Shown: positions 1-64,000 of the stretch, piece after piece | Position numbering within the stretch: the first letter of the stretch is position 1 | Layout: each line of letters begins with the position of its first letter | DNA from: a virus | Virus record (IMG/VR): IMGVR_UViG_3300037847_006528 | Span: 16,871-80,870 of that record | Direction: 5' to 3' (one strand) | Length of the DNA: 64,000 bases | Made by a program: the position numbers and the translations under genes | The notes under the pieces: model-generated | Databases searched by the model: none | What the model saw: the letters and a program-made list of their open reading frames with translations, nothing else | What the model was told of the DNA's origin: nothing

Positions 1-2298
1 TTTTACCTCTCCCGCAACTTGGAATTGTTCTCTTTCAGGTAATTCTGAAATAACCTTTAGGTCTTGAAGGTTGGGGTATCTTTCTTTGAAGCATTCTCTT
101 AAGTCATGAGAGTAACTATAACCAAGTAGTGAGCTTTCGTATCTCCACTTGGCAAACATCTCATGTTTTCTATTTTGAGAATATATTTTTTTATACTGAT
201 CGAACTTAGTTTTAAATGTTTTAAATCTCTTTTCAGACATGATAGGCTTGTTGTCATCTCCTAAGATTTCCTTGCCTATAACTTCTGATATTGCATCCAG
301 TATATCATATCCAAACCTCTCCCCTATCTTACAAAAGTTTCTTTTTTCTCTGTCTGTAAGAAGGTTGAATGCTTGTGCTTCTAGGACCATGCGGGTTCTA
401 TTGGTCCCCGCATGATCCATTGTTCCAGCTTGGATTAAAGCCGCAAGCACAGAGATGTTGATACCGCACTGTCTGGCAGCTAGAAATACCTCGTATTTGT
501 TTGAAAATTCTATCCCTCTGAACTCTACAAGGCTCTCCATTGCCTTGAGAGAGATCCCTTTGATACTATTTAATCCGTATCTAATATTTTCTCCCTCTAT
601 CTTGAAATCGAAATCTGATTTAAATAAGCAAGGAGGAAGCATCTTCATCCCGAAATCCTCTAACTCTTCATTAACGCCAGATATAGTAGTTAATGGTTCT
701 GGATCAAACTCAGCGCACTCAAGAACAGACAGAAAGAATTCTTTAGGATAATTATGTTTTAGGAAAACTGTTTTAGCGGCTAAATCTGCATAAGCAAAAC
801 TGTGAGATTTGTTAAAAGAATAGTGGGAGGCGGCTATCAATGAATTCCAATAAAAGTCAGCTATCTGATCAGTCAGGTCTCTAGAACGAGCGGCTTCATA
901 AATCCTATCTTTCCACTTGGGCATTTCATCAACTTTTTTCTTGCCAACAATTCTCCTTAACACCTCCGCTTCTTCAAGGGTGAGGCCGAAAACTTTGTGA
1001 GCTATCTGCATCAATTGCTCTTGATACAAGATAACATTTTTTGACCAAGAAAGTATCTTGTCTAACTCAGGATGTATTTCCTGCACTAATGAGTTGTTTT
1101 TATTATCTCTATATGTGTCAACAAACTCAAGTGCTGCTGGTCGAGCTAGGGCTACAACGTCAGAAAGTTCATTTAAGTCATCTGGCTTGATCTGCCTACA
1201 TACCTTAAAGTTTGTTTCAGCGGATATCTGAAAAAGACCTACAGGATGTCTAAAGTCCTGCAATATATCATAAATAATTTGAGAATTAGGATCTACATCT
1301 TCAATTTTTATACCAACTTTTTCGCAGGTTTTATGAGCAATCGTTAGTGTTCTTAAGCCAAGAATGTCAAACTTAACCATTAGGTCGGCAACATCTGACA
1401 TATCATAACCCGTCACTAAATCTCCGTCTTTAGTTTTTTGCAATGGGACTACGTTCTCTATTTTCTCAGAACAGATTGCTATGCCAGATGGGTGGACCCC
1501 AGTATTCTTTGGCAAGTTCTCTATTTTTAATGCATTTTTAAAAGTCCTTTTGTGCTCTCTTGCCCATCTTTTAAATTTACCACTTTCTTCTCTAGCTTGC
1601 TCTAAGGGAAACACATTACCGTGCAGTTTAGGTATCATGTCTGATACTTGATTAGCTTGATCTTCTTTTACTTCATCAAAGTATTTCGTAGCTTCTCTTA
1701 TACACAGTTTGGCGCTAAAGGTGTTAAAGGTTAGTATTTTAGCAGTCTTTCCTTCATGCTTGCGCTCAATATATTGAATGACTTTATACCTTTGCTCGTA
1801 AGAAATATCTGAATCTACATCAGGTAAAAGGCTTCCAACTAGAAACTCTTTACCTCTTTTATCAGTGACTTTCTTTGCTCTAGATTTAGACACGAATCTC
1901 TCAAAAAACAAATCGTGGGGGATTGGGTCAATGTTTGTTACTCCGAGCAGATATAGAACAAGAGAGCCAGCAGCAGAACCACGGCCAGCACCAGTTGGAA
2001 TATTATTGTCATGACAAAAATTTAAAACGTCCCAGTTAAGCAAGATATAATCTGTAAAACCAAGCTCTTCAAAAGTTTCTAACTCTTGCTTTGCTCTATC
2101 AAAATAAACTTTTTTATTTTCATATTTTGTGATACCTTTATCACGCAAACCTTTTCTGGCTAGCTCATATAGAATCTCTTTTGTAGAACTATCAGGGCCA
2201 AGCCCTATTTCTTCTAGCTTAGTAGGGTCAACGATTGTTTTGGGAAGCTCAACTCCCGCAGGTTCGCAATCATCATATGGTGTAAAGTCTTCAAACAT
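1..2298 (-). CDS. dnaE: DNA polymerase III alpha subunit, polymerase core without PHP domain (3' end beyond window)
   Basis: Replicative C-family polymerase core. Translating the minus strand from the ATG at 2298 gives 766 codons open to the window edge. Family motifs are clear: GRGSAAGSLVLYLLG ahead of the palm, the catalytic PDVDSD at residues 159-164 (D162 and D164 match the DxD aspartates of bacterial DnaE), the third acidic site in VKFDILGL (D311), and later YQEQLMQIA, LRRIVGKKKVDEM and the FNKSHSFAYA block. In bacterial DnaE about 270 residues of PHP domain precede this region. Here the protein starts just after the PHP boundary, and the missing part is encoded two genes upstream (2899-3597). 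The ATG overlaps the stop of the exonuclease gene by one base (TAATG), which suggests coupled translation. The C-terminal tau-binding and OB regions lie beyond the window. Identification as a PolIII core is very secure. Confidence 0.95.
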   Translation of the reverse strand, partial: MFEDFTPYDDCEPAGVELPKTIVDPTKLEEIGLGPDSSTKEILYELARKGLRDKGITKYENKKVYFDRAKQELETFEELGFTDYILLNWDVLNFCHDNNIPTGAGRGSAAGSLVLYLLGVTNIDPIPHDLFFERFVSKSRAKKVTDKRGKEFLVGSLLPDVDSDISYEQRYKVIQYIERKHEGKTAKILTFNTFSAKLCIREATKYFDEVKEDQANQVSDMIPKLHGNVFPLEQAREESGKFKRWAREHKRTFKNALKIENLPKNTGVHPSGIAICSEKIENVVPLQKTKDGDLVTGYDMSDVADLMVKFDILGLRTLTIAHKTCEKVGIKIEDVDPNSQIIYDILQDFRHPVGLFQISAETNFKVCRQIKPDDLNELSDVVALARPAALEFVDTYRDNKNNSLVQEIHPELDKILSWSKNVILYQEQLMQIAHKVFGLTLEEAEVLRRIVGKKKVDEMPKWKDRIYEAARSRDLTDQIADFYWNSLIAASHYSFNKSHSFAYADLAAKTVFLKHNYPKEFFLSVLECAEFDPEPLTTISGVNEELEDFGMKMLPPCLFKSDFDFKIEGENIRYGLNSIKGISLKAMESLVEFRGIEFSNKYEVFLAARQCGINISVLAALIQAGTMDHAGTNRTRMVLEAQAFNLLTDREKRNFCKIGERFGYDILDAISEVIGKEILGDDNKPIMSEKRFKTFKTKFDQYKKIYSQNRKHEMFAKWRYESSLLGYSYSHDLRECFKERYPNLQDLKVISELPEREQFQVAGEVK

Positions 2299-2912
2299 TA
2301 TAAATCCATGTGTTTTTTAAGCTTAAGAAATACTTGGTAGCACATCTTAATATCGTAAAGAGCATTGTGTAGCTTGCTCTCATCAAATTCTATATCAAAA
2401 AACTTTAAAAGTTGGTTTTGAGAAACCTTCGCTTTGAGGGTTCTGTCGTTAATTATCTTATATTGCCAACTCAGCAGATTACCCTTGGGTCTTTCTAGCT
2501 CTTCTCTGTAAGCTTTACCCAAAGCTCTTGTGTCTAAAATACGAGGCAAGTAAGAATAATCTGGCTCTTGTCCCAACAACCTTTGCAACACAGCAAGCAT
2601 ATAAACATCGAATCCCAACAAGTTTTGCCCCACTACAATGTATTGAGGGTCGAATATATACTTTTCAAACTTGCTCCAAACTTCATCTAAAGGCTTGGCT
2701 TTTCTGTTATAAGTATCCCAATTAAACCCCGTGATCTTCTTGACCACTTCGGGGATATTTAATTCTTTGTGAATTATAAACTCGTCATGAGTTTCTAATG
2801 TTTTATTTCCCTGACAGACTATCCAAGATAGCTGCCATGTTTTAGAAGAGAATAAATTTAAACCTTCTGTTTCAGTATCGAATACTAGATATTTTTGATT
2901 ACTTGGCAACAT
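2298..2912 (-). CDS. DnaQ-like DEDDh 3'-5' exonuclease (probable proofreading subunit)
   Basis: Probable proofreading exonuclease for the phage PolIII. The 204-residue protein has the DEDDh motifs in order: FDTETEG near residues 11-17 (ExoI), a VGQNLLGFD segment (ExoII) and HNALYDIKM near the C-terminus (ExoIII, H-x4-D). This length is normal for an epsilon-type single-domain exonuclease. The gene lies between the PHP piece (14-bp overlap upstream) and the polymerase core (1-bp overlap downstream), so the three proteins should be made together. In Gram-positive PolC the exonuclease is inserted inside the polymerase chain next to the PHP domain; the gene order here resembles a broken-up version of that. 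Function as a proofreader is inferred from family and position. Confidence 0.9.
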   Translation of the reverse strand: MLPSNQKYLVFDTETEGLNLFSSKTWQLSWIVCQGNKTLETHDEFIIHKELNIPEVVKKITGFNWDTYNRKAKPLDEVWSKFEKYIFDPQYIVVGQNLLGFDVYMLAVLQRLLGQEPDYSYLPRILDTRALGKAYREELERPKGNLLSWQYKIINDRTLKAKVSQNQLLKFFDIEFDESKLHNALYDIKMCYQVFLKLKKHMDL

Positions 2913-3597
2913 TTTCTAAATATGATTCGTAGCAAAATTCGTTAGAGGAAAAATCATTAAGGCGAGGGTTGCTAAAGGTAGGCACTCTGCCCTGTTTTCT
3001 GTTGCAGACAGCTTTATACATTTGGAATGCTTCAAAGTCATCCTTATTTCTATAATATATGCTTTTGCACTTTTCTGTTTTGACTTTTAATTTCTTGAGT
3101 GCTGCGCTTATCTGAAAATCAAATGGGTGGTTATTAGATTCTTCTATGTAAAAGTGATCATACTTGTCTAAAAATAGATCGCACATTCCAAAATGAAAGA
3201 TGTTGTTGAATACATATGAATCGTAGAATGGAACCCCAATGCTTACATCATCAAGTTCTCCTTCTCCTAGATCTGATAAATTTAAGCACTCCCCTACACT
3301 GGTAAAACATTTGGTATAAAGTTTTCTAACAACATGCACTCCTTTGTTGTTTTTGGGGAAAAAAATTAATTTGCTTGTCTTTTCAGTAATACTTGACTGA
3401 ACAACGGGAACCTTTACTCCATAAACCATAGGGATTTCAGCGTGGAGGAACGCTTTATTAACAACCCTAAACCCGTAGAAGTTATCTTCTACTAATATCA
3501 TCTTCTTGACATCTCCGCTTTGAGCAATGTCAATAAGATCCTCTACTCTGAGTAAGGATCGACCTATGCTAAACGTGCTTTTAAATAAAGGAATCAC
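2899..3597 (-). CDS. Stand-alone PHP-domain piece of DNA polymerase III alpha
   Basis: The 232-residue protein aligns by eye with the N-terminal PHP domain of bacterial DnaE. Its opening (PLFKSTFSIGRSLLRVEDLI) matches the HLHxHSxxSLLDG-type start, VYGVKVPVV matches the IKPIxGxE strand, KLIFFPKNNKGVHVVRKL matches the LxLLAKNxxGYxNLxxL block, and AFQMYKAVCNRKQG followed by RLNDFSSNEFCYES matches the end of the domain (HxVLLxIQxG, RxxFxxxEFYxKS). The metal-binding histidines of active PHP domains are largely lost, so it is probably structural, scaffolding the polymerase and exonuclease as degenerate DnaE PHP domains do. Translation appears to start at GTG. The alternative, an unrelated hypothetical protein, is unlikely given collinearity with DnaE. 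This is sequence-pattern evidence, not a database search. Confidence 0.78.
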   Translation of the reverse strand: MIPLFKSTFSIGRSLLRVEDLIDIAQSGDVKKMILVEDNFYGFRVVNKAFLHAEIPMVYGVKVPVVQSSITEKTSKLIFFPKNNKGVHVVRKLYTKCFTSVGECLNLSDLGEGELDDVSIGVPFYDSYVFNNIFHFGMCDLFLDKYDHFYIEESNNHPFDFQISAALKKLKVKTEKCKSIYYRNKDDFEAFQMYKAVCNRKQGRVPTFSNPRLNDFSSNEFCYESYLENVAK

Positions 3598-7218: not shown

Positions 7219-7445
7219 AAACCTATTTCACCTTCTTTTTTCGCCATAGCTAACTCTATTAATTTACTAAGAGCCATCTCTACGCAAGGGTTTTCTGTTT
7301 TGGTAGTCATACTAGGACAACCATTTTTGTCAACATAAAGAAGTAAAAACCCTCTATTACCACCGTTTGCAGAGCCAGTGGAGTCATAAATTTTATCAAG
7401 AAGAGATTGAGGTAATCCTTGTTGTTCATCGTCTTGTAACTTCAT
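7215..7445 (-). CDS. Small hypothetical protein in replication operon
   Basis: A 76-residue protein of no recognised family, with a glycine/asparagine-rich middle (STGSANGGNRG) and two isolated cysteines. It overlaps its neighbours by 4 bp on both sides, which supports it being a real gene in the operon. Its position directly before the helicase is where some phages keep a helicase loader or regulator, but nothing in the sequence shows that. Confidence 0.6.
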   Translation of the reverse strand: MKLQDDEQQGLPQSLLDKIYDSTGSANGGNRGFLLLYVDKNGCPSMTTKTENPCVEMALSKLIELAMAKKEGEIGL

Positions 7446-7858
7446 TTCAATAGCTTAATCAAACTTTTTGGGTATTTTTTTGAATCCAAGACATCAGACT
7501 CTAGGACTCTAATTAATTTAATTTTATTAATTTCGCAGAAATATTCTTTCTTCTCATCTCTATGGAGTTGATGAAGGAATTTTTGGCGAGAATTAGAATG
7601 AAAAAACTGATTATATCTGTAGTGCTGATTACCGTCCACTTCTACCGCTATTTTTTGTGTAGAGTTATAAAAATCTAAACTCATTCTAGTCCCCGCGACA
7701 GGAAACTCTTCAAAAACAACATCAGCAAACCAATAATCTTTTAAGTGATTTTTTACGTCTTTTTGTATACCGCTTTTGCAGTCAGATTCCCAATCAATAA
7801 GATATTTGCTGACGTTTTTTATCTTCCTCTCTCGACCATTAGAGCATAAAAATATCAT
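7442..7858 (-). CDS. Small endonuclease of the DUF559/Vsr-like PD-(D/E)XK type
   Basis: The 138-residue protein has the compact restriction-endonuclease-like core RMSLDFYN (D62), a strand with AVEVDGNQHY (E73-x-D75), and a helix with HRDEKKEYFCE before the strand IKLIRVLES. This is the order seen in DUF559 and Vsr-type nucleases. The usual (D/E)xK lysine is replaced by D75, as happens in the DUF559 EVDG motif. It overlaps the UvsX gene by 4 bp, so a role in recombination or repair is plausible but inferred. Confidence 0.7.
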   Translation of the reverse strand: MIFLCSNGRERKIKNVSKYLIDWESDCKSGIQKDVKNHLKDYWFADVVFEEFPVAGTRMSLDFYNSTQKIAVEVDGNQHYRYNQFFHSNSRQKFLHQLHRDEKKEYFCEINKIKLIRVLESDVLDSKKYPKSLIKLLK

Positions 7859-55427: not shown

Positions 55428-55433
55428 TTACAC
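55428..55433 (-). promoter_or_regulatory. GTGTAA motif before protease-scaffold gene
   Basis: GTGTAA on the minus strand, exactly 8 nt before the ATG at 55419. The TAA within it is also the stop codon of the portal gene (last two codons GTG TAA). Confidence 0.5.
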
Positions 55434-57407
55434 AGAAATTTGAGTAGAATGATATAAAATCGCAGAAGATAAGTCATCTAATTGATGCTCAGTGCCTAAT
55501 TCTAAAACTTTACTATGCACATTAAGCTCTGTTATAGCATCTAGATTTTCTACAACATTAGCTAATGTTGATTCCCATTCATCCTTGTCTTTAGCAATAA
55601 CTATGGTCTCACAAACCTGAGCAACCATTTCTTTTTTCTGCTTGGACATTCTCTTTAAACCAAATTTAGAAGCAAACTCTCTGAAGGCTAATAATTCAAA
55701 CTCATTAATCTTTTTAGTAGCCTCAACGATATGTTTCTTGGAAAATGTTTTTGAATTCGATACACCCAAAGGTCTACCTCCAGATGGAGCTATTGGAGCA
55801 GTCGGCTCTGGTTTTTGAGCGTCCTTAGGCTCTGGGTCTCCACCTTCTTCTCCTTCATTGTAGAGATTAATAGTGTTGACTAGAGGCATATAATGTCCCT
55901 TTTCCCTATCGTCTTTAAATTTATCTTGAGCCTTCTCCATGTCTTTCCCCTCTGGGAATACCCCAGTGTGAACAACCTGCATACCCTGCTCAGGAGTTAG
56001 AACTCCAAGCTCCATAAGCCTTGTGGCGAGTTTGGCTAAATTGTTATCATCCATAGTATCAGTTCTCGCGAAATGAGCTTTCGGCCAAGACCGAAGACCT
56101 GCCGCCTTACAGACTCTAGCTATTTCTGGATTGATAAAGTCCTCTAAAAAGGAGGCTCTTGATTCTTCTAGTCGCTGAAAGAAAACTTTCATTTTAACTT
56201 GAAGATCAGAGTATTTAGAATCCCCAATTAAAACATTTTGCAATCCATCCTCAATATCCTTGTTGATAACATCATATTTTTCTGGCCCAACAACCTTCTT
56301 AATATCAGGAATAACAAAATTTGCTTTTGTCGTATAGTCAGAAACCAAAACTCTACCCACACTTTGATTTTTGAAGATTTGCTGCATCGCAGCTAAATTC
56401 TTATGGTTAATCCCGCCCTTATCTGGCTCATTGCCCATAGTAACAAGCAAGACTACATTTTCAATAGAACGGCTAATTGCTTGATCAATATTTTTTAATT
56501 CTATTTTTCTGTTAATATCATCGAGAACAGAATATCCTACAGGTATAGCCAAAGGCTCATAATCTTGTTTCTTACAAAAAACCACATGAAGCAAACTTGG
56601 ATCTAATTTAATTTGAATCCTAGTCATCGCATAACCTGTTTTAGAATTAGCAATAAGCTTCTTGGTTTCTTCTGGCAAAGAGTCATAGAGTTCTTGCTCA
56701 TGCTCTGTTTGCGGGTTTCTCAAACGAGAAATTTCAAATGGAGTTAAAACTTTAAAATACTCATAACCACTAAAAGATATCGCACCCTTTGTCGCGATGT
56801 CTGTTGGGTTAATTAACAAATATCTAATTGGTATTTCTTTTCGAACACTTGCCCCGTAGGTTTCAAGCATCTTTTGGGAATTTTTCAAAGGTATCTTCCC
56901 ATCCATTCGGTAAAGGAAAACATTTCCTGACCTGTAGTATTCTCTAAAATATTGTGATTTTAAATCATGCATCCTGATTCTTTTGAACCATGCTTTAATA
57001 AATTTTCTAGATTTTTCATTACCGCCTTCAATATACAAATCTGAATTAGCGAACTCAGCTAAAAGATCAATTGTGCCTCTGAAATTTGCTATGTTGAAGT
57101 AGGCTTTTTGGCAAAGCTCAATAGATTCCCTAGCGTCAGCGGAATTTCCATCATAATTAAACGGTAGTATCCCATTTTTAATATTGGAAAAATTATTCCC
57201 AAGCCCATCTGTAGCAGCCCTATTTGTTCTCGCTGCTGTCCGACTAGTGGGGGCTGACAACCTAGAGGCTGTCGAGGAACTATATATCGAATCTCCAATC
57301 AACTCAGGAGAGAAGTCTTCTTGCGCTTCTACTAAGTTTTCTATAGGTTGTTCTCTCTTTTTGAACTTCTCCCAATATTCTGATCTTTTGGTATATTTCC
57401 GAGGCAT
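55428..57407 (-). CDS. Portal protein
   Basis: The dodecameric vertex through which DNA is packaged. From the ATG at 57407 the protein has 659 residues (PRKYTKRSEYWEKFKK...). Features of long portals are an acidic N-terminal segment, a core with YFREYYRSGNVFLYRMDGK, a long stretch containing NQSVGRVLVSDYTTKANFVIPDIKK, EKYDVINKDIEDGLQNVLIG (stem helices), and a proline-rich spacer plus C-terminal helical barrel (KHIVEATKKINEFELLAF). A longer form from 57470 would overlap the terminase gene by 20 bp and lacks support; the 57407 ATG lies 8 nt after a GTGTAA motif. Confidence 0.85.
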   Translation of the reverse strand: MPRKYTKRSEYWEKFKKREQPIENLVEAQEDFSPELIGDSIYSSSTASRLSAPTSRTAARTNRAATDGLGNNFSNIKNGILPFNYDGNSADARESIELCQKAYFNIANFRGTIDLLAEFANSDLYIEGGNEKSRKFIKAWFKRIRMHDLKSQYFREYYRSGNVFLYRMDGKIPLKNSQKMLETYGASVRKEIPIRYLLINPTDIATKGAISFSGYEYFKVLTPFEISRLRNPQTEHEQELYDSLPEETKKLIANSKTGYAMTRIQIKLDPSLLHVVFCKKQDYEPLAIPVGYSVLDDINRKIELKNIDQAISRSIENVVLLVTMGNEPDKGGINHKNLAAMQQIFKNQSVGRVLVSDYTTKANFVIPDIKKVVGPEKYDVINKDIEDGLQNVLIGDSKYSDLQVKMKVFFQRLEESRASFLEDFINPEIARVCKAAGLRSWPKAHFARTDTMDDNNLAKLATRLMELGVLTPEQGMQVVHTGVFPEGKDMEKAQDKFKDDREKGHYMPLVNTINLYNEGEEGGDPEPKDAQKPEPTAPIAPSGGRPLGVSNSKTFSKKHIVEATKKINEFELLAFREFASKFGLKRMSKQKKEMVAQVCETIVIAKDKDEWESTLANVVENLDAITELNVHSKVLELGTEHQLDDLSSAILYHSTQISV

Positions 57408-57415
57408 ATCAAAGT

Positions 57416-57421
57416 TTACAC
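57416..57421 (-). promoter_or_regulatory. GTGTAA motif before portal gene
   Basis: GTGTAA on the minus strand followed by ACTTTGAT, exactly 8 nt before the ATG at 57407. This is part of why that start is preferred over 57470. Confidence 0.55.
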
Positions 57422-57450
57422 TAAAGTTATAAAAGTTACTTTTAAACTTT

Positions 57451-59349
57451 TCAAATTGCAAATGGAACAAATGTGCTATCGACTGTTTTTTCTGGAGTAG
57501 CGTTTTCTGCGTCGAAATAAACCTTGGCGAACCAATTGCCTAAAACTAGAGCAGAATAAGAGTCTTTTCTAGCTCTGTTCGGCCCCTTTTGCCTTCTTAG
57601 GTTTTGCGGCAAATTAAAAGACTGAGATCCTTGAGGGTTACCTATAACCTCGATATTAGCACATTCAGCTTTAGTAAGTTCAACAATTGACTTTTGATGG
57701 TCTATCAAATCTATCATCATAGCACCCTTAGATGCCTTTGGTGCCTTAATATCCCATTTTAATTTTTCTATAGGTATATTTTTCTTTCTCTGCTCATTGA
57801 AATGAGAATCAACCGCCCTAGAACCAAATAAAATTCTTTTATGATCTATGGCAGCTTGCAGCATCTCATTACCAGTTCTTATCCAGTTAGATGTAGGTTT
57901 TCTTAGGATGCAGTAATTTCTCTCCCTAGAGTTATATTGATTTTTAAAACTTAAAATATCAGAGTGCCAGTTTTCTGGTTTTTCTAAATCAACATCTATA
58001 ACACCAATTTTTATATTTTCTTTTTTAAACAAAGCACTCTCATTACAAGAGTTTATGAATTGAACCCCTCCATTGTAGTCACCGCAAATACCAACAATAT
58101 TAAAATGTTGTATTAGGTATAAGAAATATTGCATATGCTCTTTCAAAGAAACACCCGCTATTGCATAACTATGGACTAGGCATATTTTTTGTGAATCCCT
58201 GTCTATCTTGAAAACATGCATGGCAAAATGGTCTGCACTTGTGTTACCTGCCCAGTTAGGGTCAAAGGCCAGTAAATACTCATCGCTAGGATTCCCTACT
58301 ACTTCTACAGCAGGAAACTCTCCGTCTGGTATCGTGCAAGCAGCCATCTTAGAAAGCCTGAAATATCCGTCACTCTCATCTATAAATTGTGCTCCAAATT
58401 CCCTCTTGAACTGCATTTCACTCATGGTCGCCTTAGCTTGTTTAAGCAGGTTTTGATCATAGAGTCTTGGTGGAGCGCAGTCATAACTTAACTGCATAAT
58501 CAGTCTATAAGCATCATCTTTAAAATCGTCCTCTTCATCACCTTCCCCTTCTTTAACGGTCAAGCCGTCTATCAAGTCTACATATTTCTTGTAGAGCTTA
58601 TACATATACTCAAACTTAAATGATGGAGATGAAAGAATTATTAACTTGTTGTTAGGCCAGATATATCTGTCCTCTTCTGTCATCTCGCCTTTGTCGATTA
58701 ATTTGGATTCTAAGTTGTATAGCTCCTCCCTTTCGATAGGATTCTCTACCACCCCAAGGAAAGGAATAATAACTTCATTAAATATTTTTTCAGGTATAGT
58801 TAAGAACTCATCCAATACAATCCTGTTAAATCGAAATCCACGAAGTCTATCACCGTTAGCTAACGGAAGGGCTATCGCCCTAGCCTTACCTAAAGTCATA
58901 GTCCACTGGTCAGTTCCTTTTTGTATTTTAAATCCACACTCTTTAATTAGGCTTGCCTCTGACTTAGAGACAATATCCTCCATCTTTTGGAAGATCTGTT
59001 TTGATTGCCTAAAGCTACCTGCAATAACACCTATATTTGCATTAGGGTTAAGCAGACACTCTAGTAAAACATAAATGGCTGTAGAGAATGTCTTCGACAT
59101 ACCCCGCGAAAATACGAACATGGAGTAGTCAGAAACCATCATCCCCTTGATGGCCATTGCCTGAAACGGAAATAATTTAACCCCTAAAAACAACTCAGAG
59201 GTAAATGCTATATTGTTCCGTAGAAACTTATACAGCAAATACTTTGCCTCTTCTTCTTTGATACTGCCTTCTAGCTCTTTAAGAGTCTTATTTAACTCTT
59301 GTGAAGAATGTTCAAGCCGATATCCTTGTTTTCCCTTTGTCCAAGACAT
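57451..59349 (-). CDS. terL: Terminase large subunit
   Basis: ATPase and nuclease that packages the genome into proheads. The 632-residue protein has a modified Walker A, SRGMSKT (81-87, consensus G replaced by S), preceded by MFVF. FNRIVLDEFL is the Walker B strand with the catalytic acidic pair, followed by LIILSSPSF (coupling motif). The C-terminal RNase H-like nuclease has LLAFDPNWAGN (first aspartate), VGICGDYNG (second acidic site) and a late strand with MIDLIDHQKS. Length and motif order are normal. Its start overlaps the zinc-finger nuclease gene upstream by 38 bp. Confidence 0.93.
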   Translation of the reverse strand: MSWTKGKQGYRLEHSSQELNKTLKELEGSIKEEEAKYLLYKFLRNNIAFTSELFLGVKLFPFQAMAIKGMMVSDYSMFVFSRGMSKTFSTAIYVLLECLLNPNANIGVIAGSFRQSKQIFQKMEDIVSKSEASLIKECGFKIQKGTDQWTMTLGKARAIALPLANGDRLRGFRFNRIVLDEFLTIPEKIFNEVIIPFLGVVENPIEREELYNLESKLIDKGEMTEEDRYIWPNNKLIILSSPSFKFEYMYKLYKKYVDLIDGLTVKEGEGDEEDDFKDDAYRLIMQLSYDCAPPRLYDQNLLKQAKATMSEMQFKREFGAQFIDESDGYFRLSKMAACTIPDGEFPAVEVVGNPSDEYLLAFDPNWAGNTSADHFAMHVFKIDRDSQKICLVHSYAIAGVSLKEHMQYFLYLIQHFNIVGICGDYNGGVQFINSCNESALFKKENIKIGVIDVDLEKPENWHSDILSFKNQYNSRERNYCILRKPTSNWIRTGNEMLQAAIDHKRILFGSRAVDSHFNEQRKKNIPIEKLKWDIKAPKASKGAMMIDLIDHQKSIVELTKAECANIEVIGNPQGSQSFNLPQNLRRQKGPNRARKDSYSALVLGNWFAKVYFDAENATPEKTVDSTFVPFAI

Positions 59350-60262
59350 TTACTCGTTCATCTATAAAATATTGTAAATCTGTATTCCACAATCTATCTC
59401 CATAGTGCAGAATAAGTGGAATTATTTTTTTAGCTCCTGCTCTATTGTGTGCAAAAATGATTTGTAGATTCTGTGGGTAGTCTATAAGCAGATTGCGTAT
59501 ATTGTGCCACAAATACCCTAAGTTAGATTTAAACTTAGAAGTTTTATTGTGTTCTTCTAGTTTGCTAATAGTTGTCTCTGCTACTACAAACATATATGAA
59601 TTAAACTGAACACACCTATCCATCTCTCTCCTAAATCTATCTATATCTTTGCCGAAGGTCTGCCTGAAATCATCCTGAGCTTTTCTATCTACAAATGTAG
59701 ATGTATAGTAATCACCTCTAGCTGTATAATCCCCGAAATCTAATTTGTTAATTACAGAGTCCTTAAATTTTAACGGAGCTTTTTCTCTTGTGTCAGTAAA
59801 TAAAGGAATACTACTTCTATCAACCTCCCAGAAATCTCTAGGCAGTCCTCCACAAAAATGATTATCTATTCCTAGCTCATCCAAGAAACTTTTATAAGAC
59901 CCCCATAGTTTTTTATAATAAAAAATACCAGCCATCTCTGACAAATCATAAAAAAGGTTGGGTGGAGAGCTTTTTATACCTTTTAAGTCAAATTTTTGCT
60001 GCGCTCTTTCTTTGAGGTAATTCTTGACCTCATTCTCTGGAGCCGAGTCCATCCATAACTTAAAATTATCATAACTGATAAAATTATCCCTAAAGTATTG
60101 ATCGTAAGATTTGAAAGGGATCTTTTCACACGAATACAAATCCCTTCTCCCATAGTGCTTGACATAGTAATCGCCAATAGTAAGTGCGTGAGCTTTCAGG
60201 TGTGCGTGAAAACTCCTCTTGTTGTCAAACTCCTTACCACACTCTAGACAAGTAAATTCCAT
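59312..60262 (-). CDS. C2H2 zinc finger fused to XPF/ERCC4-type nuclease
   Basis: A 316-residue protein. The N-terminus is a classical C2H2 finger: C5-x2-C8-x12-H21-x3-H25. The second half is an ERCC4/XPF nuclease: FTDTREKAP (D157-x-R159-E160), LDFGDYTARGD (G177-D178-Y179) and FVDRKAQDDF (D192-R193-K194, where the family has ERKS), then YMFVVAE. The intervening 110 residues are helical. The gene overlaps the terminase gene by 38 bp. It may process packaging substrates or recombination structures, or be a mobile endonuclease; which cannot be told from sequence. Confidence 0.8.
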   Translation of the reverse strand: MEFTCLECGKEFDNKRSFHAHLKAHALTIGDYYVKHYGRRDLYSCEKIPFKSYDQYFRDNFISYDNFKLWMDSAPENEVKNYLKERAQQKFDLKGIKSSPPNLFYDLSEMAGIFYYKKLWGSYKSFLDELGIDNHFCGGLPRDFWEVDRSSIPLFTDTREKAPLKFKDSVINKLDFGDYTARGDYYTSTFVDRKAQDDFRQTFGKDIDRFRREMDRCVQFNSYMFVVAETTISKLEEHNKTSKFKSNLGYLWHNIRNLLIDYPQNLQIIFAHNRAGAKKIIPLILHYGDRLWNTDLQYFIDERVNVLDKGKTRISA

Positions 60263-61323
60263 TACAATATTTCTTTTTTAGAGATACCTAAAATACGAGC
60301 CTTATACTCGTCCATCGTTTCAAGTCGGTCAGCTTCTTCCTCAATTAACTTGTTTTGCATTTCTGCCATCAAAATCATACGGTCACGCTCTTCTTTCTCT
60401 TGGAAAGCCTCAACAAGCGCAGCGATACTCCCATTCTGCTCCCCTCTTGCCTTTAAACGCGCCTGACGGCTTCCATTAAGGTCTTTCGTCAAAGATTCGA
60501 TTCTTTTCTCACATTGATTCAACTCCTCGCTGGTGGCCTTTATAAGCTCAGTAAGACGTAATGTTAAATCTCGCTCATTGTCAGTGTCATTGAGCATCGT
60601 ATTCAATTTGTCGATGCGTTGCTGAATATGCTTCTGCCTGACGTAGTTTGTGCAGACGGTAATATACAAATTTAACTCATCGTTTGTTAAATCTGGCTTA
60701 TCCCAAACAGTTCTTACAAATTCACTCTCAAATAGATCTCTATCTGCTATTGTTGAGTATTGGTTTATAAAATGAACGAAGCGAGGGCTTTTTAAATAAA
60801 ATAAAAGCGTCTCCATCATTCTTTTCTGTTTTGTTTGAATTTCTATCTCATCAAACTTCTGCCCAGCCCAGTCGTTTACTTTTTTTATGGCTCTGGACAG
60901 AGATTTTGGCGGTGACCACTTATCGTTAGTGATCATTTCGTTATCGTCTACAATCTCTGGCCTGTAACGCCGCAGAAACTCCATAACGGTTCTATGCTGC
61001 TGACTAAGCGGCTGTATATCCCTGTCTTTAAAAGCTAATCTCGTTATCTCTAGAGCGTTCATGCCTCTTTCGACATTATTACTCATTAAGAATTCTTTTT
61101 GTTCTGCATCCAAATCTACTTCTTCAACTCTTGGAGCTAAAGTAGTAGTAAAAGTTAAATTATTACTAATTAAAAATGCCCTAACAGCCCTACCCTCTTT
61201 AGAACGTCCATCTAAACTTTCATCTCCAAACACAGTTTGCGTAATGTGCTTTAGATCAGGGTTTTTTGAGAACTCATCTTGTATTTGAGTTTTTTGTTCG
61301 TCTGTTAATTCTATGTTATTCAT
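60262..61323 (-). CDS. Candidate small terminase or DNA-binding coiled-coil protein
   Basis: A 353-residue protein with an N-terminal helical region (LTDEQKTQIQDEFSKNPDLKHIT) that could be a helix-turn-helix, a middle FxxxYLKSPRFVHFINQY region and a long C-terminal charged coiled coil (about 240-330: LRLTELIKATSEELNQCEKRIESL, EKEERDRMILMAEMQNKLIEEEADRLE). Position one gene upstream of the terminase, separated by the nuclease, and the DNA-binding plus coiled-coil layout suit a small terminase subunit. No family match was recognised. Confidence 0.45.
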   Translation of the reverse strand: MNNIELTDEQKTQIQDEFSKNPDLKHITQTVFGDESLDGRSKEGRAVRAFLISNNLTFTTTLAPRVEEVDLDAEQKEFLMSNNVERGMNALEITRLAFKDRDIQPLSQQHRTVMEFLRRYRPEIVDDNEMITNDKWSPPKSLSRAIKKVNDWAGQKFDEIEIQTKQKRMMETLLFYLKSPRFVHFINQYSTIADRDLFESEFVRTVWDKPDLTNDELNLYITVCTNYVRQKHIQQRIDKLNTMLNDTDNERDLTLRLTELIKATSEELNQCEKRIESLTKDLNGSRQARLKARGEQNGSIAALVEAFQEKEERDRMILMAEMQNKLIEEEADRLETMDEYKARILGISKKEIL

Positions 61324-61997
61324 AAGATATCGTGCTCCTTCATGATTTTAACAGCAATATTATAAAATTTCTTCTTTAAGTTAGCCATTTGTTTGTATCT
61401 AGGTTTTTTTCTTTTTGCAGAGTCTGCCTTAAACCCAAATTTTTTAGCGACATCGTTTTCGTCAATGTTGTCAATATAAAGCATATAGTATATTTTTTTA
61501 TGCTTTTCATTTAATTGCTCCATAACAAGACCATGCAATTTGTTAGAAGCATTTTTATAATCAACAAAATCCTTTAAAGTGGCTACACCTGTGGAAACCC
61601 CCTCCTCTAGAGCTAAGGGAAGCTTTATGTTAAAAGCTCTTTCTTTTTTCTTTTTCCACTTAGCAAAGTCAGGACACGTTTCATCTTGCTCTTTGCTCTT
61701 TGTCAATTCACAGCTAGTAGCCCCCATGTTATGGGGACAGCGTAAACAGGGCTTAGCGAAACTTGAATAATTGTTACGAATCAAATTTTTAATCTGATTC
61801 GATATAATCATCGAAGCCCAAGGCTTGAAGGGGCGCGATTGGTCCCAAAGATCCCACTTTTTATAAATATGAAGACGAATTATTTGGCAGACATCATCGT
61901 AGTCAATCCACGCTAAGGCGCTTAGTTGCCATTTCGGTCTATATTTTTTAAGGAGTTCTTCTAAATCTTCGCGTTGACTATCAAAATCATGACTCAT
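61320..61997 (-). CDS. Second sigma-factor-like protein with cysteine-rich insert
   Basis: A 225-residue protein with sigma region 2 in IDYDDVCQIIRLHIYKKWDLWDQSRPFKPWASMIISNQIKNLIRNN (DxxDxxQxxxLxxxxxxxxFDxxRPFxxWxxxIxxNxxxxxxR). Region 4 resembles LNEKHKKIYYMLYIDNIDENDVAKKFGF. Between them lies a cysteine-rich insert (CLRCPHNMGATSCELTK then ETCPDF) that may bind zinc. It precedes the packaging genes in the late operon, as late-transcription sigma factors often do. It overlaps the next gene by 11 bp. Confidence 0.68.
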   Translation of the reverse strand: MSHDFDSQREDLEELLKKYRPKWQLSALAWIDYDDVCQIIRLHIYKKWDLWDQSRPFKPWASMIISNQIKNLIRNNYSSFAKPCLRCPHNMGATSCELTKSKEQDETCPDFAKWKKKKERAFNIKLPLALEEGVSTGVATLKDFVDYKNASNKLHGLVMEQLNEKHKKIYYMLYIDNIDENDVAKKFGFKADSAKRKKPRYKQMANLKKKFYNIAVKIMKEHDIL

Positions 61998-63062: not shown

Positions 63063-63202
63063 GAATAACTGAATGAAAGGCTTCTTGTTTATAGAATTCA
63101 CCACCCCCCCGCGCTTTGCGTGTCAAGTGAAAAGTCAAGAATTCTGAAAAAACCCTCCCCTAGCCACCCGTCAAAAAAAGTGATAAAAAAACAAAATAAA
63201 GC

Positions 63203-63231
63203 TTGCTTTTTCTGTGAAAGTGTGGTATACT
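63203..63231 (+). promoter_or_regulatory. Rightward promoter P1 (repeated cassette)
   Basis: TTGCTT (63203-63208), 17-nt spacer, TGG-TATACT (extended -10; TATACT at 63226-63231), preceded by an A-rich tract. TGTGGTATACTTAC (63221-63234) recurs in P2 and, with one change, in P3. The -10 ends 6 nt before the ATG of the 47-residue gene, so transcription should begin at that ATG. Confidence 0.75.
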
Positions 63232-63237
63232 TACCGC

Positions 63238-63381
63238 ATGATAAAAGACACATATACAGTTTACCACAACTACTCTCTCGATGCCGAGTTTTCTGGCACA
63301 CGCGAAGAGTGCGAGGAGTGGATCGCAAAGGTTGACCGCAAAGGTCTAGGTTGGTTCTTCATCGAGAAGGACAGCCAATAA
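63238..63381 (+). CDS. Small hypothetical early protein (47 aa)
   Basis: A 47-residue protein (opens MIKDTYTVYHNYSLDAEFSG, ends WFFIEKDSQ). The start codon lies 6 nt after the -10 of promoter P1, so the message is predicted to be leaderless. Its codons are more GC-rich than those of the late genes. Reading-frame length, promoter and the directly adjoining next promoter support it as a real gene. No known function; host-takeover proteins often have this size and location. Confidence 0.65.
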   Translation: MIKDTYTVYHNYSLDAEFSGTREECEEWIAKVDRKGLGWFFIEKDSQ

Positions 63382-63408
63382 AAAAACAAAATAAAAACAC
63401 TTTTCCCC

Positions 63409-63437
63409 TTGACTTTTTCCTCAATCTGTGGTATACT
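63409..63437 (+). promoter_or_regulatory. Rightward promoter P2 (repeated cassette)
   Basis: TTGACT (63409-63414), 17-nt spacer, TATACT (63432-63437). The 20-mer TCAATCTGTGGTATACTTAC at 63421-63440 differs from P3 by one base. The downstream leader is about 33 nt of A/T with no Shine-Dalgarno sequence before the ATG at 63477. Confidence 0.8.
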
Positions 63438-63476
63438 TACGAAGTAATAAATAAATAAACAATAAATAAAAAATCT

Positions 63477-63776
63477 ATGTTAGCAAATCTTATATCCGAT
63501 GCCGTCCGTCTCGCTCCTCGCTTCGCCAATGAAGATGGCGAGCTTTTGTTCGATCACCTTACAACTAAGTTTCCTGATGCCGCAACTGATGCGGTGGACT
63601 TGGTTGTCCGTCGTGTATGCGCCAACGCTACAGCGGGATTGTCTCGCGACTGTTGGGCATCGCTTGCCACTTCACTACTTGACGAGATCGAAGACTGGGG
63701 CGACCTGTCCAAGCCTTCGCCCTTCGGCATCGACTTTGAACTCGACCGCCTCGCTAAGTTAGTGATAACAAAGTGA
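63477..63776 (+). CDS. Hypothetical early protein (99 aa), GC-rich codons
   Basis: A 99-residue mostly helical protein (ISDAVRLAPRFANEDGELLF, TAGLSRDCWASLATSLLDEI, FGIDFELDRLAKLVITK) of no recognised family. It is preceded by promoter P2 and an A/T-rich leader. By eye its base composition is near half G+C, unlike the much more AT-rich replication and glycan genes. That fits either selection for strong early expression or recent acquisition. Confidence 0.7.
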   Translation: MLANLISDAVRLAPRFANEDGELLFDHLTTKFPDAATDAVDLVVRRVCANATAGLSRDCWASLATSLLDEIEDWGDLSKPSPFGIDFELDRLAKLVITK

Positions 63777-63797
63777 GAAAAAAAACGAAAATAAAAC

Positions 63798-63825
63798 TTG
63801 CAATCATCTCAATCTGTGGTATAGT
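63798..63825 (+). promoter_or_regulatory. Rightward promoter P3 (repeated cassette)
   Basis: TTGCAA (63798-63803), 16-nt spacer, TATAGT (63820-63825), inside the 20-mer TCAATCTGTGGTATAGTTAC (63809-63828). The -10 ends 6 nt before the ATG at 63832, as in P1. Confidence 0.75.
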
Positions 63826-63831
63826 TACATC

Positions 63832-64000
63832 ATGAAAACGAAAGAAACCAAAAAGTCCGACTTCGACAAGTTCACCACCGAGCGCAGTGCCGCACAGGTA
63901 ATGCGGGATGACCTTTGCTTCCTTGTTGGTTGGATCAAGTCCGACTGTCCACAAGGCGCATCTGCCATTGAGCGCATCTTGAAAGCGCACGAACAGAACA
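63832..64000 (+). CDS. Hypothetical early protein, partial at window edge
   Basis: An open frame running off the right edge (at least 56 residues, opening MKTKETKKSDFDKFTTERSA, with SDCPQGASAIERIL further on). Promoter P3 places the transcription start at its ATG. Codons are GC-rich, like those of the other rightward genes. No function recognised. Confidence 0.6.
   Translation, partial: MKTKETKKSDFDKFTTERSAAQVMRDDLCFLVGWIKSDCPQGASAIERILKAHEQN

Follow-up and report, generated by a model that had tools for sequence, protein, structure and literature searches.

An ERCC4-type nuclease gene bearing an N-terminal zinc finger belongs, as a fixed component, to the packaging operon of an uncultivated clade of marine phages, where it lies directly before terL, the gene for the terminase large subunit ('marine' is taken from the sample series in IMG/VR and from the contigs as a set, rather than from each sample). 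Sequence, a structure model and synteny provide its fold, its intact catalytic residues, its fixation, the selection on it and its place in the gene order. As judged from profiles and a predicted structure, the encoded protein has the ERCC4 fold and belongs to the ERCC4/XPF-MUS81 nuclease superfamily. In the functional reading that we prefer, to which we give about an even chance, it would be a structure-specific endonuclease adapted to packaging that debranches recombining concatemers for packaging.

The gene occurs in a window of 64,000 nucleotides (the whole stretch of DNA that was analysed), which is part of an 82,224-bp viral contig. Its surroundings are arranged as follows.

55428..57470, minus strand: gene after terL, a probable portal gene by position only, in conserved order
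57451..59349, minus strand: terL, terminase large subunit, 632 aa (PF03237, E=5.8e-7; PHROG 2, E=5.1e-28)
59312..59349, minus strand: overlap of 38 bp between the nuclease 3' end and the terL 5' end, from the ORF coordinates
59312..60262, minus strand: zinc-finger ERCC4-type nuclease gene, 316 aa, ATG start, assigned from the ORF, from ERCC4 and PHROG 3490 and from AF2 and Foldseek
60262..61323, minus strand: conserved helical/coiled-coil protein of 353 aa, upstream of the nuclease, with an all-helical AF2 model
61320..61997, minus strand: sigma-70 region 2 protein (PF04542, E=4.3e-8)

The first-pass annotation had described an ORF with a C2H2 finger and an ERCC4 nuclease just upstream of terL, overlapping it by 38 bp, and both the coordinates and the domains were confirmed. 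When the surrounding 8.1 kb was shuffled 200 times, the longest open frame to arise had 232 codons, compared with 316 for the nuclease gene. Packing is tight here: the 353-aa gene upstream ends at 60262. The 353-aa product is a possible small terminase; its AF2 model found no PDB fold match in a structure search, and a profile comparison with the genes that precede terL in Bacillus phage Stahl and Microcystis phage MaeS gave no match either. The gene at 55428..57470 matched no Pfam or PHROG family. It usually overlaps terL, and in two relatives (L046 and L055) about 850 bp of extra sequence lies between terL and this presumed portal gene. To the right of 63 kb (window 63100-64000) there are short plus-strand genes, and G+C is higher; a run of N just past the window (G000 80871-80880) is possibly a scaffold join, yet similar small genes follow phoH in G007.

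Within the nuclease gene, the following regions were delimited.

60188..60256, minus strand: C2H2 zinc finger, residues 3-25, ligands C5, C8, H21 and H25 (PF00096/PF13894)
59867..60187, minus strand: helical middle region, residues about 26-132, from AF2 helices, with no recognised family
59351..59806, minus strand: ERCC4 nuclease domain, residues about 153-304, containing D157-T-R-E160, G177-D178-Y and D192-R-K-(X3)-D198

The window protein scores below the curated Pfam cut-offs for both named domains, with E=4.7e-4 and 20.5 bits for ERCC4 (PF02732, cut-off 24) and E=4.8e-4 and 20.9 bits for zf-C2H2 (PF00096, cut-off 25.2). PHROG 3490, 'ERCC4-type nuclease', matches residues 155-289 with E=1.5e-8, and 33 of 35 aligned relatives, scanned singly, matched ERCC4 independently (best 4.2e-6). 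In Foldseek, the top PDB hits of an AF2 model (mean pLDDT 80) were A. pernix XPF, P. furiosus Hef, human XPF and MUS81 (2bhn at E 8e-4 and probability 1.00; 1j24 also matched). The worry voiced with the original description, that a profile search might expose the ERCC4 motifs as coincidence, is ruled out by the PHROG 3490 match, the Foldseek matches and the independent ERCC4 matches of the relatives.

The finger is likewise real. A C2H2 model was matched by 28-29 of the 35 relatives scanned singly, and the four zinc ligands, which follow the pattern C-X2-C-X12-H-X3-H, are invariant in 81 of the 81 sequences that cover them. To call it 'eukaryote-like', as was done initially, is too strong for a single finger; similar fingers are found in bacterial Ros/MucR proteins, whose model (PF05443) gives E=0.05 with the window protein. 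The helical middle region holds invariant Y, W, F and P positions in the alignment columns, and a search of the N-terminal half against phage proteins returned nothing usable.

Residue conservation was read from 96 distinct sequences, 81-87 of which cover the positions concerned. In all of these covering sequences D157, R159, E160, G177, D178, D192, R193, K194, D197 and D198 are invariant. Catalytic members of the ERCC4 family carry GDXnERKX3D (PMC3905867), and the active-site motif of the present clade is GD-X13-DRK-X3-D. The initial remark that the motif reads DRK rather than ERK proved to hold for every covering sequence, as a fixed property of the clade; because it is invariant across the clade, we regard it as a conservative change of E to D and not as decay. 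D-x-K falls inside the wider PD-(D/E)XK pattern.

With XPF, MUS81 and Hef of archaea and eukaryotes, the phage protein has in common the nuclease fold and the GD...(D/E)RK...D pattern. It differs from them in reading DRK, in lacking both the (HhH)2 and the helicase domain, in adding an N-terminal C2H2 finger and a helical region, and in occurring in a tailed phage whose gene content looks bacterial. No (HhH)2 was found after the nuclease domain, there being no HhH Pfam match and the protein ending some 12 residues past the last helix; it is therefore a member of the nuclease superfamily and not an orthologue of XPF or MUS81. Among viral proteins, the phage nuclease is nearest to the haloviral ERCC4 endonucleases (HRTV-5 gp85, HSTV-2; PHROG 3490), both in sequence (about 29% over 100 aa) and in structure; its best viral match in Foldseek is the ERCC4 protein from Halorubrum sodomense tailed virus 2. 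The haloviral proteins are about 155 aa long and consist of the nuclease domain alone, and HRTV-5 gp85 keeps VERK. None of the flanking genes shown for HRTV-5 is annotated as a terminase, whereas the window nuclease adjoins terL. ERCC4-domain proteins named EP364R also appeared among the weak Foldseek matches, which would fit a counter-defence enzyme, for example one cleaving cyclic nucleotides as reported for ASFV EP364R, whose target is cGAMP (PMC9364804). With the gene sitting inside a packaging operon, a finger of the DNA-binding type and a PADLOC search without a match, we consider such a function highly improbable.

Relatives were collected by nuclease-led and terL-led searches with exact peptide seeds, taking the best 80 matches of each. 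Among the matches listed, the nuclease is present in 129 of 134 distinct contigs. Of the five contigs without it, four break off inside the start of terL or no more than about 50 bp from it; the fifth, L200, has an FkbM-type methyltransferase-like gene (by eye; L200:5-760, plus strand) before terL and ends there. In all 128 listed contigs with sufficient downstream sequence, terL is the next gene of the operon after the nuclease (the single other nuclease contig ends too early), and the 353-aa gene lies upstream in all 114 of the listed contigs where it is detectable. The 128 include L069, in which a LAGLIDADG-like gene (L069:5416-6057, plus strand), identified by eye and giving no NCBIfam match, stands between nuclease and terL. 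The spacing between nuclease and terL is mostly -38 or -35 bp, with -1 in one contig and +4 in one subclade. Since it varies, and since L069 has a gene in between, the overlap is not essential.

The synteny comparison called for at the outset thus places the nuclease in essentially all close relatives listed, and always before terL. As the searches used exact seeds and the best 80 matches, this rule is valid for the clade whose terL is at least about 76% identical. An alignment-led search aimed at more distant nucleases brought back essentially the same contigs. In the distant cultured relatives Stahl, TR-TP1 and MaeS, with terL 24-27% identical, inspection by eye found no ERCC4 motif upstream of terL. 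No cultured member of the clade was found among the relatives gathered, and a plasmid search gave no plasmid-borne relative. The single candidate from a cellular genome, a 30,177-bp MAG contig (L241) from a Flavobacteriaceae bin, is likely a phage contig; its binning with that MAG is the only hint of a host.

These distributions also bear on the proposal of a selfish endonuclease that has become fixed, in which the finger and helical region would bind a target in the packaging genes while the nuclease drives the spread of a homing element. Homing endonuclease genes are known to concentrate around terminase genes (PMC10448857); T5orf172, IPA-HNH and LAGLIDADG genes near terL resemble the present case in that a nuclease gene adjoins terL, and the L069 insertion lies at this very place. 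Those genes are, however, sporadic and mobile, whereas the window nuclease is fixed and of ERCC4 type. Occupancy is full save for the contigs that end early and for L200, and no clean empty site was seen among the 134 contigs listed; in L200 the methyltransferase-like gene at the contig end may be either an insertion or a replacement. The catalytic and zinc residues are without exception invariant, and ERCC4 is not known as a homing fold. At the 66 loci where all four genes are complete, the nuclease diverges in step with terL (Mantel r=0.86, p=0.001) and with the two remaining neighbours (r=0.89-0.93, p=0.001). The nuclease has a median dN/dS of 0.06, against 0.04 in terL; both ratios are approximate since dS is high. 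This pattern is, on the sequences compared, that of a long-resident core gene under purifying selection. The selfish proposal is weakened by the occupancy, the co-divergence with terL and the want of an empty site, and we consider a homing endonuclease, even a recently fixed one, improbable. The N-terminal half may have an origin of the homing type.

We favour instead an endonuclease of the XPF/MUS81/Hef superfamily, metal-dependent and structure-specific, that the phage would have adapted to genome packaging. The C-terminal domain would cut DNA, and the N-terminal finger and helical region would stand in for the missing (HhH)2 as a DNA- or protein-binding part. The nuclease would be made from the same operon as the terminase. 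Its likely substrates would be branched or flapped intermediates of UvsX-driven recombination and replication, and cutting them would leave linear concatemers for the TerL motor to take up, in the manner of T4 endonuclease VII (gp49). Among the phage's gene products are a UvsX-like recombinase, a DnaB-type helicase, a primase and exonucleases, so that branched intermediates are expected; the phage also encodes a ribonucleotide reductase, a tape measure protein, the sigma-70-region-2 protein and PhoH. T4 gp49 is essential (PMC3485210), and in T4 a portal-bound resolvase frees packaging that has stalled at branches (PMC9958956). The likeness of T4 endonuclease VII and T7 endonuclease I to the window protein lies in the proposed role in debranching for packaging; the folds are unrelated, and whereas portal binding links gp49 to packaging (PMC9958956), the link proposed for the window nuclease is read from gene order. 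An operon position suggests co-expression, not mechanism, and we infer from it and from the family that the enzyme is catalytically active, specific for branches, timed to packaging and in contact with terminase or portal. A stronger version, in which an XPF/MUS81-type branch cutter with a finger in place of (HhH)2 would be an obligatory component of the packaging machinery at the motor throughout a widespread marine lineage, we put forward only tentatively. Against debranching stands the absence of (HhH)2, which helps XPF/MUS81 to bind junctions.

The main rival would have the protein assist the terminase, making or stimulating the initiating or terminating pac/cos cut with TerL and perhaps with the 353-aa protein, the finger reading the site. 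An analogous arrangement is that of HK97-type gp74, likewise encoded by a small nuclease gene beside the terminase and counted in the packaging module; it differs in having an HNH fold and no ERCC4 domain and in stimulating cos cleavage by TerL (PMC9410871), an effect attributed to Kala et al. 2014 in PMC9611059. The constant adjacency to terL, interrupted by a gene in L069 alone among the listed contigs, the fixed finger and the tight co-divergence with terL would all be in keeping with assistance of this kind. The terminase, on the other hand, has a conserved Walker B motif and RNase H-type acidic residues (D363, D424 and D596; 81 sequences), and because it retains these, the ERCC4 protein is not needed merely as a substitute for TerL nuclease residues. 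Characterised XPF/MUS81 enzymes are, moreover, structure-specific and not sequence-specific, and a single finger confers little sequence specificity. On balance, we regard assistance to the terminase as rather unlikely.

A general recombination or replication nuclease, cutting flaps or forks or acting in repair, could also happen to be encoded in a late operon and be tied to packaging by transcription alone. XPF, MUS81 and Hef work in repair and fork restart, small ERCC4 nucleases occur in haloviruses, and magroviruses have an ERCC4 nuclease among their replication genes (PMC10160649). In the window, by contrast, the replication genes are clustered some 50 kb away, and in no contig does the nuclease join them; we judge this explanation unlikely. 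A competing candidate lies beside the uvsX-like gene.

7442..7858, minus strand: DUF559/Vsr-like small nuclease, directly beside the uvsX-like gene (PF04480, E=4.7e-4)

It was found beside uvsX in 18 of 19 long contigs. Just as conserved as the ERCC4 gene, it competes with it as a candidate for roles in recombination and may be the real resolvase, which counts against debranching by the ERCC4 protein. The suggestion, made when the gene was first noticed, of branch or flap cutting ahead of packaging therefore remains the most plausible by family and position, with the qualification that the nuclease at 7442-7858 could serve instead. A family search of the 19 long contigs gave no match to RuvC or RusA, with a tool so insensitive that PF02732 was recovered in 6 of 19 and 13 of the 19 known ERCC4 genes were missed; at that rate of recovery, the lack of other resolvases has weak support. 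Endo VII-type matches appeared in two of the 19 (G009:12222-12668 and G007:53959-54381, both minus strand), and the G009 gene is probably mobile because it lies between primase and helicase and is found in two relatives only.

A list from 2012 gives five superfamilies of viral resolvases (Endo VII, Endo I, Rap, RusA and RuvC), none of them ERCC4-type (PMC3485210). XPF/MUS81 enzymes have been studied mainly in archaea and eukaryotes, and here one of their superfamily is found in a phage packaging operon. Its fixation there suggests that branch removal can be coupled genetically with packaging. Being small, single-chain and free of (HhH)2, this ERCC4 enzyme also offers a system in which to study the origin of junction specificity.

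Two further observations concern other genes of these phages. A 177-aa protein of no known family (L082:5071-5604, minus strand; 74% in G001) looks by eye like a PD-(D/E)XK nuclease. These phages also seem to have a DNA polymerase of family C (by eye DnaE-like), together with a separate DnaQ-like exonuclease and a PHP-domain gene (window 2298-3597 and G009:8001-8861, both minus strand), which is unusual at such a phage size.
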